From assembly GCA_934254985.1 (NCBI GenBank), contig CAKQMS010000044.1, forward strand, positions 1 to 18,887: a stretch of 18,887 bases of DNA, written 5' to 3'. Made by a program: the position numbers and the translations under genes. Each line of letters begins with the position of its first letter. Position 1 is the stretch's first letter. Below, one piece after another: positions 5,840-12,255 of the stretch. The DNA is from an uncultured Prevotella sp. Lineage in GTDB: Bacteria > Bacteroidota > Bacteroidia > Bacteroidales > Bacteroidaceae. Below the pieces are notes generated by a model. It searched no databases. It was not told the origin of the DNA and worked only from the letters and a program-made list of their open reading frames with translations.

Positions 5840-6916
5840 TTAGACCTCTTTCCACAGCCAACCTTCTTGCCATTTGCCTTCTGTTTCCGTTCCGTTTGGA
5901 TTCGACACCGAGAGACCGAGAAGGCGAACCTTCATTATTGGCGATACTGAGATTTGGGATAATAATGATTTGGCAATGGGCAGAATGTCGGTCTTGGTGA
6001 TGAGATAGGAGTCGACTGAAATGCTGCGCGTAATCTGACGGAAGTCGGCATACTTAATCTTCAATGTTAGTGTGCGACCGGAGAAAGAGGCCTTGGCAAT
6101 ACGCTCCACCAATTCCAATACCGCATGGTAAAGCTCTATTAATAATATGGTACGCGAAGCGATGTCTTCAGCGAAAGTACGTTCGCAACCTACCGATTTG
6201 CGCACACTGTCGGTTTCCACCTTGCGCACATCAATGCCCAACGAGAAATTATGGTATATTGTGCCCACTTTGCCAAACACTTCCACCAAATGGGCTTCCG
6301 AAACCTTGCGCAAATCGTAGCCCGTAAAGATGCCCATGCTGTGCATACGTGCTGCCGTCTTCGAGCCAATGCCCCAAAACTTCTCTATAGGCAAATCGGC
6401 TATGAAGTCGAGTGCCTTGTCGGGATGAATCACGGTCATGCCATTTGGCTTGCGATAGTCGGAAGCCACCTTGGCAAGAAACTTGCAATACGAAATGCCT
6501 GCTGAGGCTGTGAGATGCAGTTCGTCGGCTATGCGCTGTCTTATTTCTCGCGCTATGTCTACCGCCATCTCTATACCTTTCTTATTATTAGTAACGTCGA
6601 GGAAAGCCTCATCAATAGACAAAGGTTCTATCTCGTCGGTATAGTCTTGGAATATCTCGTGCACCTGCTGCGACACTCGCTTATACTCTTCCCTATCGCC
6701 TCCCACCACTATCAGCTCCGGGCAGAGTCTGTGCGCAGTCTGTATCGACATGGCGGAATGCACTCCCCAGCGACGGGCTTCATAGCTCGCCGTCGACACC
6801 ACACCACGAGGACCGTCATAGCCCACCGCAATAGGTTTTCCGCGCAATTCCGGATTGTTTCTCTGCTCTACCGAAGCAAAGAAAGCATCCATATCTACAT
6901 GTATAATCTTTCTCAC
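5840..6916 (-). CDS. dinB: DNA polymerase IV (Y-family translesion polymerase)
   Basis: 358 residues. Error-prone translesion synthesis past damaged bases. The N-terminus MRKIIHVDMDAFFASVE aligns directly with E. coli DinB. Metal ligands are Asp8, Asp102 and Glu103 (LSIDEAF), and the steric gate is Phe13. Palm and fingers occupy about 1-165 and the thumb, with its helix-hairpin-helix (IEKFWGIGSKTAARM), about 166-235. The little finger is about 240-340. The start codon is GTG at 6914-6916, with an in-frame TAA directly before it, so there is no longer start. The usual C-terminal QLxLF-type clamp-binding motif is absent; the tail is KWQEGWLWKEV, whose QEGWLW may be a divergent version. I see no SOS-type operator that I can defend. 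It is monocistronic, with the acn operon downstream on the same strand. Confidence 0.95.
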   Translation of the reverse strand: MRKIIHVDMDAFFASVEQRNNPELRGKPIAVGYDGPRGVVSTASYEARRWGVHSAMSIQTAHRLCPELIVVGGDREEYKRVSQQVHEIFQDYTDEIEPLSIDEAFLDVTNNKKGIEMAVDIAREIRQRIADELHLTASAGISYCKFLAKVASDYRKPNGMTVIHPDKALDFIADLPIEKFWGIGSKTAARMHSMGIFTGYDLRKVSEAHLVEVFGKVGTIYHNFSLGIDVRKVETDSVRKSVGCERTFAEDIASRTILLIELYHAVLELVERIAKASFSGRTLTLKIKYADFRQITRSISVDSYLITKTDILPIAKSLLSQISVSPIMKVRLLGLSVSNPNGTETEGKWQEGWLWKEV

Positions 6917-6958: not shown

Positions 6959-7057
6959 ATCACATTTTTCGCACGACTTTTATGCTACTTCATCACATTT
7001 TCCGCACGAGTTTCATACCATTTCATCACATTTTCCGCACGAGTTTTGCACTTTATA
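6959..7057. repeat. Three tandem 33-bp repeats upstream of dinB
   Basis: Units at 6959-6991, 6992-7024 and 7025-7057 all begin ATCACATTTTyCGCACGA. They diverge mainly in the last 10-12 bases, and units 2 and 3 are the most alike. The unit is 11 codons long; on the minus strand it reads as a repeated TRAENVMK motif in a short frame that I do not believe is a gene. There are no unique spacers, so it is not a CRISPR. It abuts the dinB promoter. Confidence 0.85.
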
Positions 7058-7258
7058 GTTAACATAAACCAAGATAAACACCCTATGCTGGGCAAACTCT
7101 CATACTTCGAGTTTTTGATGTAAAGCCTTGCCAATGCGCTTTCGTAAGCAAGCTGTACGACGCGCCTTGCCAAGCCTTTCCATCAAGTGCAGTTCCTGCA
7201 CTTTGCCCAACATAGGGCGATAAACAAAGATAAACCGTTGCTGGAGGTAGTGGGTAGT

Positions 7259-7314
7259 GGGTAGTGTTTAGTGGGTAGTGTTTAGTGGGTAGTGTTTAGT
7301 GGGTAGTGTTTAAT
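7259..7314. repeat. 14-bp tandem repeats in the middle arm
   Basis: Four units of GGGTAGTGTTTAGT at 7259-7272, 7273-7286, 7287-7300 and 7301-7314 (the last ends AAT). They are flanked by partial GTAGTGG and GGGTAATGGGT copies. They fill the loop of arm 2 of the cloverleaf element (7247-7335). The strand is strikingly G/T-rich. Confidence 0.9.
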
Positions 7315-7364
7315 GGGTAATGGGTGTGCGATATTCTCCAGCAACGGTTTATTTTGGTTTATTG

Positions 7365-7489
7365 CCTGATTGTTTTCTGAGAGGCGTGCGCGCCTCTGGT
7401 TCTTAGTATAGTTCAGACTGTCGAGAGTTCGCACTCTCGTAAAGGCTGAGCTATACTAAGAAACAAGCTCTGCTCAGAAAACAATCAGG
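7365..7489. repeat. Arm 3: doubly nested hairpin
   Basis: Within the perfect 17-bp outer stem lie a short hairpin and a longer stem. The hairpin is GAGGCG-TGCG-CGCCTC (7381-7396). The longer stem is TTCTTAGTATAGTTCAG (7400-7416) paired with 7446-7462, one G-T or mismatch position, and is itself capped by CGAGAGT-TCGC-ACTCTCG (7422-7439). No U tract follows, so it is not an ordinary terminator. Confidence 0.8.
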
Positions 7490-7511
7490 GGTTTATTTGG
7501 TTTATGTTTAA

Positions 7512-7641
7512 GCACTCGGAAAAACATTCAAGTAAACTTGCTGATTTTTCGCTCGTTTGCATTATCTTTAAATAAGATAAGCTGCACTCGGAAAAACATT
7601 CAAGTAAACTTGCTGTTTTTTCGCTTGTTTGCATTATCTTT
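7512..7641 (+). repeat. Duplicated 58-bp promoter module
   Basis: The segments 7512-7569 and 7584-7641 are the same 58 bases with two substitutions, separated by 14 nt. Both contain the palindrome CAAGTAAACTTG (7529-7540 and 7601-7612) and end in GTTTGCATTATCTTT. Only the downstream copy keeps the G that completes the TATCTTTG box; the upstream copy has A. Confidence 0.9.
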
Positions 7642-7660: not shown

Positions 7661-8608
7661 ATGAAGAAGACATATAGAATAACATTGGCAGTAATAGCCA
7701 TTTTCATTTTGGCAACAATAGGTGGCAGCGTATACATGCTCAACTTCTCATTGTCGCCCGACCCTAACCGCACCGACTTAGACAGCACTTACGCCATATT
7801 ATATAAGCACTTCCCCGATATGAAACCATGGGTAGACAGCATGCAGACAAATGGATATTTGCGTGACACATTCCTCACCATGCCTACTGGAGAGCGACAT
7901 CATGCCCTTTACTTCAGAGCCGACTCGGCAAAGGGTCGCACAGCCGTGTTGGTGCATGGCTACAAGGATTGCGCTGCTAAGTTTCTTTATTTAGGTAGAA
8001 TGTATAATCGCGACTTAGGATACAATGTCGTGATGCCCGACTTGCATGCACACGGCCTAAGCGAAGGCAACGACATACAAATGGGATGGAAAGATCGTCT
8101 CGACATAAAGCGGTGGACAGAAATGGCTGCTGAGACATTCCGCGATTCTGTATATGGAGTAAACATCGTGGTACACGGAGTGTCGATGGGTGCAGCCACA
8201 ACCATGAGTCTTTCGGGCGAAGAGCTACCTGCCTACGTCACTCATTTCATTGAAGACTGCGGATACACCAGCGCATGGGACGAGTTTGCCGTGCAGCTAA
8301 AAGCTCAGTTCTCGCTTCCTCAGTTCCCTTTGATGTACACCACCAGTCTGCTATGCCGTATAGTCCATGGCTGGAGCTTTGGCGAATGTTCCCCTATCAA
8401 GCAAGTAGCGAAATGCCAGCGTCCTATGTTCTTCATCCATGGCGATGCCGACGACTTCGTACCATTCTATATGATGCAGCAAGTCTACGATGCCAAAACC
8501 CACGGCAAGAAAGCCATGTGGGTGACAAAAGGCACCACCCACGCCCGCTCCTATGCCGACTATCCAAAAGAATACACCGAAAGAGTAAGAGCCTTTTTGA
8601 AACAATAA
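7661..8608 (+). CDS. Membrane-anchored alpha/beta hydrolase (YqkD-like)
   Basis: 315 residues from ATG 7661. A longer frame back to 7538 would translate the promoter repeats and is rejected. Residues 7-29 form one hydrophobic segment with positive residues before it, so the enzyme is probably anchored in the inner membrane facing the periplasm, or is exported. The alpha/beta hydrolase fold follows: oxyanion region VLVHGYKDC (97-104), nucleophile Ser175 in HGVSMGAAT, acid Asp264 in HGDADDFVP and His294 in TTHARSY. Overall layout resembles Bacillus YqkD-type hydrolases of the S9-peptidase clan. The substrate is unknown; it could be an esterase or acyl-peptide hydrolase. It is monocistronic, and converges with the lipoprotein gene at 9410 across a hairpin. 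Confidence 0.88.
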   Translation: MKKTYRITLAVIAIFILATIGGSVYMLNFSLSPDPNRTDLDSTYAILYKHFPDMKPWVDSMQTNGYLRDTFLTMPTGERHHALYFRADSAKGRTAVLVHGYKDCAAKFLYLGRMYNRDLGYNVVMPDLHAHGLSEGNDIQMGWKDRLDIKRWTEMAAETFRDSVYGVNIVVHGVSMGAATTMSLSGEELPAYVTHFIEDCGYTSAWDEFAVQLKAQFSLPQFPLMYTTSLLCRIVHGWSFGECSPIKQVAKCQRPMFFIHGDADDFVPFYMMQQVYDAKTHGKKAMWVTKGTTHARSYADYPKEYTERVRAFLKQ

Positions 8609-9410: not shown

Positions 9411-9465
9411 AGGGCTAATTAGTTTTTTATGGTTAAGTGCCTAAACCTAATTAATTATTCAAGAC

Positions 9466-9672
9466 GAAAAAAGCGTGGCACTAACTATGCCACATCTTGA
9501 ATTGGAGGTCGTAGGAAAAACCTTGTGTACAGATATGGTAATAGCAGCCCACGCTATAGCGTGAGAACCACTATGCCTTCCTTGTACACAATTGTGAAAT
9601 TTCCTACGTTTCCAATTCACAAGATAAGCATAACGCTTCTTCTTCAAAGTTTAGAGACGGTTTTCGCCAACT
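9466..9672 (-). ncRNA. Candidate structured small RNA, about 205 nt, with own -7 box and terminator
   Basis: Read on the minus strand, a TATCTTTG -7 box (9679-9686) predicts a 5' end near 9672. A long irregular hairpin follows, built of stacked helices. 9612-9623 pairs with CTTGAATTGG at 9496-9505 (2-nt bulge). TTTCCTAC at 9600-9607 pairs with 9511-9518. TGTACACAA at 9583-9591 pairs with 9523-9531. The cap is CACGC-TATA-GCGTG (9550-9563). Internal loops separate the helices. A second hairpin, GTGGCA-7 nt-TGCCAC (9475-9493), followed by GCUUUUUU (A run 9467-9472), is a textbook intrinsic terminator. A long interrupted hairpin ending in a terminator resembles 6S RNA in shape and length, but I cannot confirm a family. 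The -33 element is not evident. The alternative is a leader or attenuator of the lipoprotein gene 55 nt downstream. Confidence 0.65.
9475..9493 (-). terminator. Intrinsic terminator of the candidate small RNA
   Basis: On the minus strand a perfect 6-bp stem GTGGCA/TGCCAC with a 7-nt loop is followed after GC by six U (positions 9472-9467). It lies between the RNA body and the lipoprotein start at 9410. It would either end the RNA or act as an attenuator. Confidence 0.8.
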
Positions 9673-9678
9673 CTACTG

Positions 9679-9686
9679 CAAAGATA
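9679..9686 (-). promoter_or_regulatory. -7 box of the candidate small RNA
   Basis: TATCTTTG on the minus strand, identical to the boxes at 7635-7642 and 18193-18200. The expected -33 TTG at 19-22 nt is not seen in the AT-rich sequence upstream, so promoter strength is uncertain. Confidence 0.55.
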
Positions 9687-9801
9687 GAAATATTTCTTCA
9701 ATATTAATATATTTTCTTGTATTTTTTTGTAGTTTTTTGTCACTACATTAATTATTCAAGTTTTATTCCATTATAACAGGTTGAAGCATTCGTCTATCAT
9801 A

Positions 9802-12071: not shown

Positions 12072-12097
12072 CAAAGCTGGAAGAAAAATATAAATAA

Positions 12098-12182
12098 GAA
12101 TAGTCTCATTGGTCTATACGACTAGTCTCATTGGGCTTTGCGACTAGTCGCATTGGGCATCAAGACTAGTCGCATTTTTGAG
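12098..12182. repeat. 22-bp tandem repeats with GACTAGTC palindrome
   Basis: Units start at 12098, 12120, 12142 and 12164, each 22 nt apart (the last is cut short). They share the form GACTAGTCkCATTGGGC, and the first unit begins GAATAGTC. GACTAGTC is its own complement, so each full unit offers a symmetric 8-bp site at helical-turn-like spacing. They lie upstream of the helicase promoter. There are no spacers, so this is not a CRISPR. Confidence 0.85.
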
Positions 12183-12220
12183 ATATATTTACTTCGTCTG
12201 TTAGCCGAACAAGAATCGTG

Positions 12221-12255
12221 GTCATTAAGGTCATTTGTCATTAAGGTCATTAAGG
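12221..12255. repeat. Short GTCATTAAG repeats
   Basis: GTCATTAAG recurs in a 35-nt run, with one copy degraded to GTCATTTG. The run lies between the rnf terminator and the 22-bp repeats. It is probably a simple-sequence tract; I see no function. Confidence 0.7.

Follow-up and report, generated by a model that had tools for sequence, protein, structure and literature searches.

Two inverted cloverleaf units form the ends of an intergenic, probably mobile DNA element in a Prevotella-like genome

The stretch of DNA analyzed here (the window) comes from a Prevotella-like genome and is 18.9 kb long. In it, a non-coding element of 448 bp, at positions 7061-7508, lies between two divergent genes, dinB (5840-6916, minus strand) and a gene for an alpha/beta hydrolase (7661-8608, plus strand). 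The limits of the whole element were drawn from its folds, its inverted repeats and the same plan in relatives, and it contains no open reading frame of 80 amino acids or more. From left to right it consists of a linker, a cloverleaf unit, a second linker, a variable middle, an inverted linker, an inverted unit and a final inverted linker. The outer left linker L1 (AACATAAACCAAGATAAAC; 7061-7079, plus strand), recognized by its repeats and by counterparts in relatives, carries two ATAAAC-like half-sites about 10 bp apart; the inner left linker L2 (ATAAACAAAGATAAAC; 7220-7235, plus strand), the inner right linker L2' (7346-7362, minus strand) and the outer right linker L1' (7489-7508, minus strand) were delimited by repeat comparison. 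As the initial annotation had described, the junctions carry versions of one linker, with direct copies at 7064 and 7220 and inverted copies at about 7346 and 7489. By eye, each linker is a double half-site, with copies of ATAAAC or AAAACC set about 10-11 bp from each other, a spacing that would suit binding on one face of duplex DNA. L1 and L1' together with the whole inverted units form terminal inverted repeats.

Arm 1 (7080-7219, minus strand) was identified by the T2 nhmmer profile and the R1 model described below as a T2-type cloverleaf unit that runs from inner to outer on the minus strand; its inner stem and AAGTGCAG-TTC-CTGCACTT hairpin are present as originally described, and its outer stem has 1 mismatch in 14 positions. 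Arm 2 (7230-7352), the middle, is an inverted repeat with a perfect 17-bp stem (7230-7246/7336-7352, 17/17) around a large loop, which holds a tandem array of heptamers, a GGTAGTG/TTTAGTG minisatellite (7246-7325, plus strand). Arm 3 (7363-7488, plus strand), assigned by R1, is a T1-type unit whose outer stem, also perfect (7365-7381/7473-7489, 17/17), encloses a short, a long and a short hairpin, and the terminal sequences of the element pair with each other in a closing repeat (7061-7072/7497-7508, 12/12). The three arms and closing stem proposed from the first inspection fold far better than shuffled sequence: z was -10.3 for the plus strand and -14.8 for the minus strand folded as RNA, so that each strand folds beyond chance, and likewise -13.3 with single-stranded DNA energies, with 0 of 100 shuffles as good in every case. 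Beside the element, a 33-bp repeat in 2.7 copies is present upstream of dinB (6959-7047), and a 72-bp tandem duplication (58 bp at 97%) lies just upstream of the hydrolase gene (7512-7641); pieces of this duplication match in related genomes and in three phage records.

The relationship between the two arms was examined with R1, a covariance model made from 13 T1 units of three other genomes and containing no window sequence. R1 matched arm 3 at 7357-7493 on the plus strand (54.7 bits, E 8.7e-15) and arm 1 at 7077-7225 on the minus strand (48.5 bits), with scores of 12.6 bits and 9.1 bits, respectively, on the opposite strands. Because the antisense strands of true units elsewhere receive 19-60 bits from this model, the strand contrast in the window (54.7 versus 12.6 and 48.5 versus 9.1) matters. 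Over 228 genomes of the order, the top R1 score outside genome G142 was 42.6 bits. A T2 nhmmer profile, likewise made without window sequence, matched arm 1 at 7236-7065 on the minus strand (E 2.6e-6); a T1 profile based on sequence alone missed arm 3 at E 0.1. The initial annotation was therefore wrong to hold that arms 1 and 3 share no sequence, since R1 finds both, on opposite strands. Most simply, the arms are diverged inverted copies of one unit, and the R1 and T2-profile matches make the element a two-ended object.

The arms, which by the first reading should recur in other genomes, do so: the full plan is present in six other Bacteroidales genomes (G455, G142, G401, G412, G752 and G751), and in two more (G215 and G759) units were seen with no partner detected. 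The spread is patchy and multicopy. Five of the 58 genomes of one genus carry the element (R1, E 1e-8), two of these carriers having been known beforehand; another genus, with 139 genomes, has at least two carriers (G455 and G412), and several copies each are found in G142, G401, G455, G412 and G759.

These relatives were reached by several routes, which define how the counts are to be read. The whole-element DNA search gave matches in 1 of 14 genomes and, with two candidates scored per genome, in 17 of 301, where 27 of the 29 places were the heptamer loop. Arm 1 matches in two genomes (G070 and G106) fell by eye in apparently coding sequence and were taken as chance. When a loop-free query was run against 139 genomes of one genus, the best match, of borderline significance (E 0.002), fell in G455 and had two more pieces beside it. 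The linker pattern led to G142, G401 and G215, and R1 to more copies and to G412, G752, G751 and G759. Genomes matching the linker pattern numbered 34 of 399, and among the 12 whose surroundings were read, 4 were real (G142, G401, G215 and G455); another pattern scan matched 11 of 139 genomes, with G455 alone real, and as it missed G412, which R1 found, the pattern counts are lower bounds. Stricter filters were applied in searches of more than 40 genomes. Since most copies came via the inner-linker pattern or a model built from such copies, the sample is not neutral.

A plasmid search with the element returned nothing, and a phage search returned three records, matching only the promoter repeat downstream of the element. 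The gene dinB was absent from the fetched flanks (up to 3.5 kb) of all 14 hydrolase loci, and a linker scan at 30 dinB loci (dinB matched in 166 of 399 genomes) found none. In IMG/VR, a first loose linker pattern had an inverted copy nearby in 5 of at least 120 loci, a second gave 13 loci, none with the element plan, and two specific patterns gave no match. Separately, four other genomes of the order contain single cloverleaf folds of similar layout (L395-L398) that score 38-43 bits with R1, their likeness to the units being that of layout and R1 score; they lie directly 3' of tRNA-Ser, tRNA-Pro and tRNA-Met or, for L397, of an apparent tmRNA end that was uncalled by ARAGORN.

Complete copies have the order L1, unit, L2, middle, L2', unit, L1'. 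The module at each end measures about 165 bp and has a cloverleaf unit of about 130 bp between two double half-site linkers; from linker to linker the unit spans about 143-152 bp, and 156 bp in arm 1 of the window. In T1, read from the inner to the outer linker, three hairpins stand within an outer stem: first a short one, then a long one whose tip is commonly GTTAAGAGCTTGCTCTTATAAG, then another short one. The layout of T2, read in the same direction, is similar, and most T2 copies have an inner stem of the form TGAAAATC...GATTTTCA. The window arms retain the layout and the linkers but lack the T1 and T2 tips of the relatives. Most pairs combine one T1 with one T2; both units are T2-like in the G751 pair, so one of each type is not general. 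Loops, tips and linkers are conserved across genomes, and unit length is near-constant. By tallies made by eye, the facing order is identical in all 16 detected pairs, the units being inverted, as in a REPIN, with their inner linkers facing; a further 15 unit matches had no detected partner in the stretch read, and 5 are truncated on their inner side by the end of a contig.

The part between the units is variable. The two unit matches of a pair can lie as close as about 14 bp (L354) or as far apart as about 310 bp (L350), and the middle, at the position of arm 2, differs among relatives in length and content. The G455 locus has two elements in tandem, of which copy A follows the window plan; in copy B the outer arms are reduced and the middle is large and branched. 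Units were apparently lost between direct linkers at two loci (L349 and L353b, by eye). The relatives are a few hundred base pairs long, and short frames overlap some of them. Two middles (L402 and L405) are filled with a stack of hairpins of the CACAGATT type, which inspection by eye and folding again show as nested palindromes. Arrays of GGTAGTG/TTTAGTG-like heptamers also recur in related genomes at places with no matched arm.

The initial annotation had proposed that a force maintains the pairing and had pointed to compensatory changes as its mark; such changes are present in the stems of both unit types beyond shuffles. Two-sided compensatory change occurs in 13 of 43 pairs for T1 and in 20 of 38 pairs for T2, whose alignment includes the window, counts that are not independent because copies within one genome are related. 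Nine of the 10 covariation measures lay above all 500 shuffles, and the remaining one ("further pair types" in T2) was reached by 21 of the 500. Watson-Crick pairs dominate, in 449 of 479 cells (T1) and 306 of 350 cells (T2). Among pairs predicted from both strands alike, G.T exceptions outnumbered A.C exceptions by 11 to 6 (T1) and 9 to 5 (T2), and on the union of pairs by 30 to 22 and 15 to 10; this lean is to the inner-to-outer strand and is not significant by our reckoning. Stem covariation without a significant strand bias favors folding DNA over RNA. Copying between hairpin arms could likewise keep the arms complementary.

These data bear on a reading in which the element is a large structured non-coding RNA or an RNA leader, read from one strand. 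The very strong fold, the compensatory changes, the excess of G.T over A.C exceptions in the inner-to-outer strand and the position of some copies shortly before a start codon (51 bp for G455 copy A) would all fit such an RNA. However, the two units are mutually antisense on any one transcript, the G.T lean on shared pairs is slight, adjoining genes vary among copies, units can be missing, and a search of the window against Rfam gave no match at the gathering score. Below that threshold, arm 3 gave mir-5615 on each strand (E 0.0024 and 0.0039), and the G455 locus gave mir-577, MIR8643 and SCARNA6. The antisense units, the lack of significant strand bias, the Rfam result and the varied neighbors thus weaken the folded-RNA possibility raised at first, and we consider it improbable.

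Several observations concern whether the element moves. The T1 units are more alike within genomes (mean identity 0.930 over 23 pairs, lowest 0.766) than between genomes (mean 0.774 over 55 pairs, highest 0.820), the two ranges partly overlapping, and neighboring reading frames vary by copy (20 copies or part copies, by eye). In several copy comparisons, similarity stops within about 15 bp of a linker tip, namely in G142:C213, at the right-hand end of G142:C224 and between copy b of G401:C59 and C75. A left flank of 34 to 108 bp is common to 4 of the 5 G142 copies compared, the right flank being shared too in three, and copies a and b of G401:C59 agree for 37 bp beyond the right tip, so some of the spread may be larger duplication or recombination. 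In G759 and G142, contigs end within units, as is usual at repeats. By eye, no consistent target-site duplication was seen at the tips (19 rows, about 16 with both tips); in the window alone, TTA occurs at 7059-7061 and 7508-7510, a single case indistinguishable from chance.

No autonomous copy with a transposase inside, and no parent element, was found in the stretches read. At G215 locus L345 (6255-7422), a T2 unit lies 50 bp from a gene for an Rpn-like nuclease (PD-(D/E)XK by eye) with RAEG repeats; this was rejected as an autonomous copy, since a second unit was not detected in the 8.2-kb contig, the end of which is masked. A unit at a contig end in G142:C256 was also set aside, its 4.1-kb contig encoding by eye a Fur-like protein and a TonB-type receptor and no transposase. 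A phage-like replication module adjoins the G455 copies and pointed to a phage origin, which was dismissed: for two of the module's proteins no relatives in viral contigs were confirmed, and other copies adjoin ordinary genes.

Elements of this family also occur inside other palindromes. With 1 of 18 copies left out for short flanks, 3 of the remaining 17 sit inside another palindrome, with scores that were unreached by 232 mismatched flank pairs; a looser control (15 copies, 156 control pairs, highest score 37) singled out these three again, 0.6% of its pairs scoring as high. By eye, the middle of L350 holds another inverted-repeat element. The G752 copy and the palindrome that encloses a G455 copy are flanked by similar outer sequence (CTTTCCCACCC; flanks of L393 and L401), and the G752 flanks pair with each other only at a score of 22 (1.7% of controls). 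The suggestion of a composite palindrome that grows by nested insertion is thus borne out in relatives, by the three nested copies and by L350.

Nesting, together with the nearly complete predominance of Watson-Crick pairs without significant strand bias, the flanks common to four G142 copies and the apparent unit loss between direct linkers, is also what would be expected if palindromes accreted with no dedicated mobility, through hairpin-templated copying and nested insertion of unrelated repeats, with recombination spreading the copies. Such a process accords poorly with the near-constant unit length, with the conservation of loops, tips and linkers across genomes and with the common facing of all 16 pairs, and we regard it as unlikely, if less so than an RNA.

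We therefore keep from the initial annotation the multi-arm fold, the force on pairing and the composite palindrome, and give up the unshared arm sequence, the folded RNA being weakened. From the sequence comparisons, 7061-7508 is probably one copy of a mobile DNA element that is dispersed, non-autonomous and without genes, and by analogy its construction is best read as that of a giant REPIN or MITE. Its ends would be recognized by a trans-acting enzyme, which would read either the duplex linkers or the units in folded form, as extruded or single-stranded hairpins, and would carry the element from one intergenic site to another. The middle, which in the window is the heptamer minisatellite, would be passenger sequence. 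Loss of units between direct linkers seems to occur, and the elements can evidently nest in other palindromes.

REPINs, doublets of REP sequences in inverted order for which RAYTs are the proposed movers, resemble the element in having two inverted palindromic units around a less conserved spacer, forming one hairpin, in extragenic positions (PMC3116915). This shared logic, the "clover" configuration of a REP doublet named in a supplementary figure legend of the same paper (PMC3116915) and the lack of an observed target duplication would fit a strict REPIN, moved by a Y1 (RAYT) transposase. Unlike REPs, which measure 20-40 bp (PMC3733652), the units here are branched cloverleafs of about 130 bp with flanking double linkers; moreover, copy number is low and no link to a Y1 transposase was found. 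Y1_Tnp exceeded the cut-off in 5 of 8 element-bearing genomes and in 33 of 68 others, a comparison in which genome completeness is unstated and 15 of the others, from the genus of G455, had no R1 search; none was detected in G401 and G412, whose completeness is likewise unstated, and the four Y1 loci examined contained no unit. In this sample of sequences, Y1 transposases do not appear clearly linked to the element and the link is not supported; we hold a strict REPIN to be highly improbable, the least probable of the alternatives weighed here.

The giant REPIN-like or MITE-like reading was also compared with other families. Bacterial MITEs such as Correia/NEMIS, ERIC and RUP are, like the element, short, non-autonomous, mainly intergenic and strongly base-paired, with inverted ends (PMC2229807), and MITEs are given as 50-1000 bp long (PMC4596501); in contrast to Correia/NEMIS, ERIC and RUP, the element has far longer, branched ends, and neither a consistent target duplication nor a parent transposase was found. 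CIR elements of Caulobacter and Brucella also have two structured arms joined by a linker, whereas inverted homologous cloverleaf ends with four linkers belong to the present element, CIR being compared by description only (PMC2229807). BrickBuilt of Porphyromonas gingivalis is a Bacteroidales MITE that likewise holds internal tandem repeats, which are predicted to fold, but it is described with short inverted ends, 23-nt repeats and no cloverleaf ends (PMC4596501). The human-microbiome candidate RNAs HMP2_4078, 4205, 1065 and 1032 are palindromic folds of 80-132 bp, mostly or entirely from Bacteroidetes, for which the passages compared mention no pairing into two-ended elements (PMC8040213); single units may already be among such candidates (PMC8040213). 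Searches of open-licence papers, judged by titles and the beginnings of abstracts, turned up no description of paired branched cloverleaf ends in bacteria.

In short mobile DNA without genes, the ends are usually short and simple or are single hairpins that are recognized in single-stranded form (PMC3116915 and PMC2229807). For ends that measure about 165 bp, fold into branches with covarying stems and carry four double half-site linkers, recognition would call for a mechanism outside the families compared. We raise, tentatively, the possibility that the folded cloverleaf itself, extruded or single-stranded, and not a short duplex repeat, is the recognition structure at each end; it is equally speculative that such recognition would constitute a new class of transposon terminus, read by a putative Bacteroidales enzyme. 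Such an enzyme may also favor other palindromes as places to insert the element. The R1 and R2 models provide a direct handle for seeking the autonomous partner and the enzyme in Bacteroidales, and the element family explains at least some of the large nested palindromes in these genomes.

Elsewhere in the window, two more tandem arrays lie between the helicase and rnf genes (12094-12176, with 22-bp units, and 12220-12255, with 9-bp units). A second strongly folding intergenic stretch (z -5.4) is found at 9440-9690 on the minus strand, upstream of a gene with a Big_2 domain; near its start stands a promoter-like site, TATCTTTG. A human fecal phage record (MT836071.1) contains a stretch that is 85.6% similar over 66% of the 9440-9690 query.
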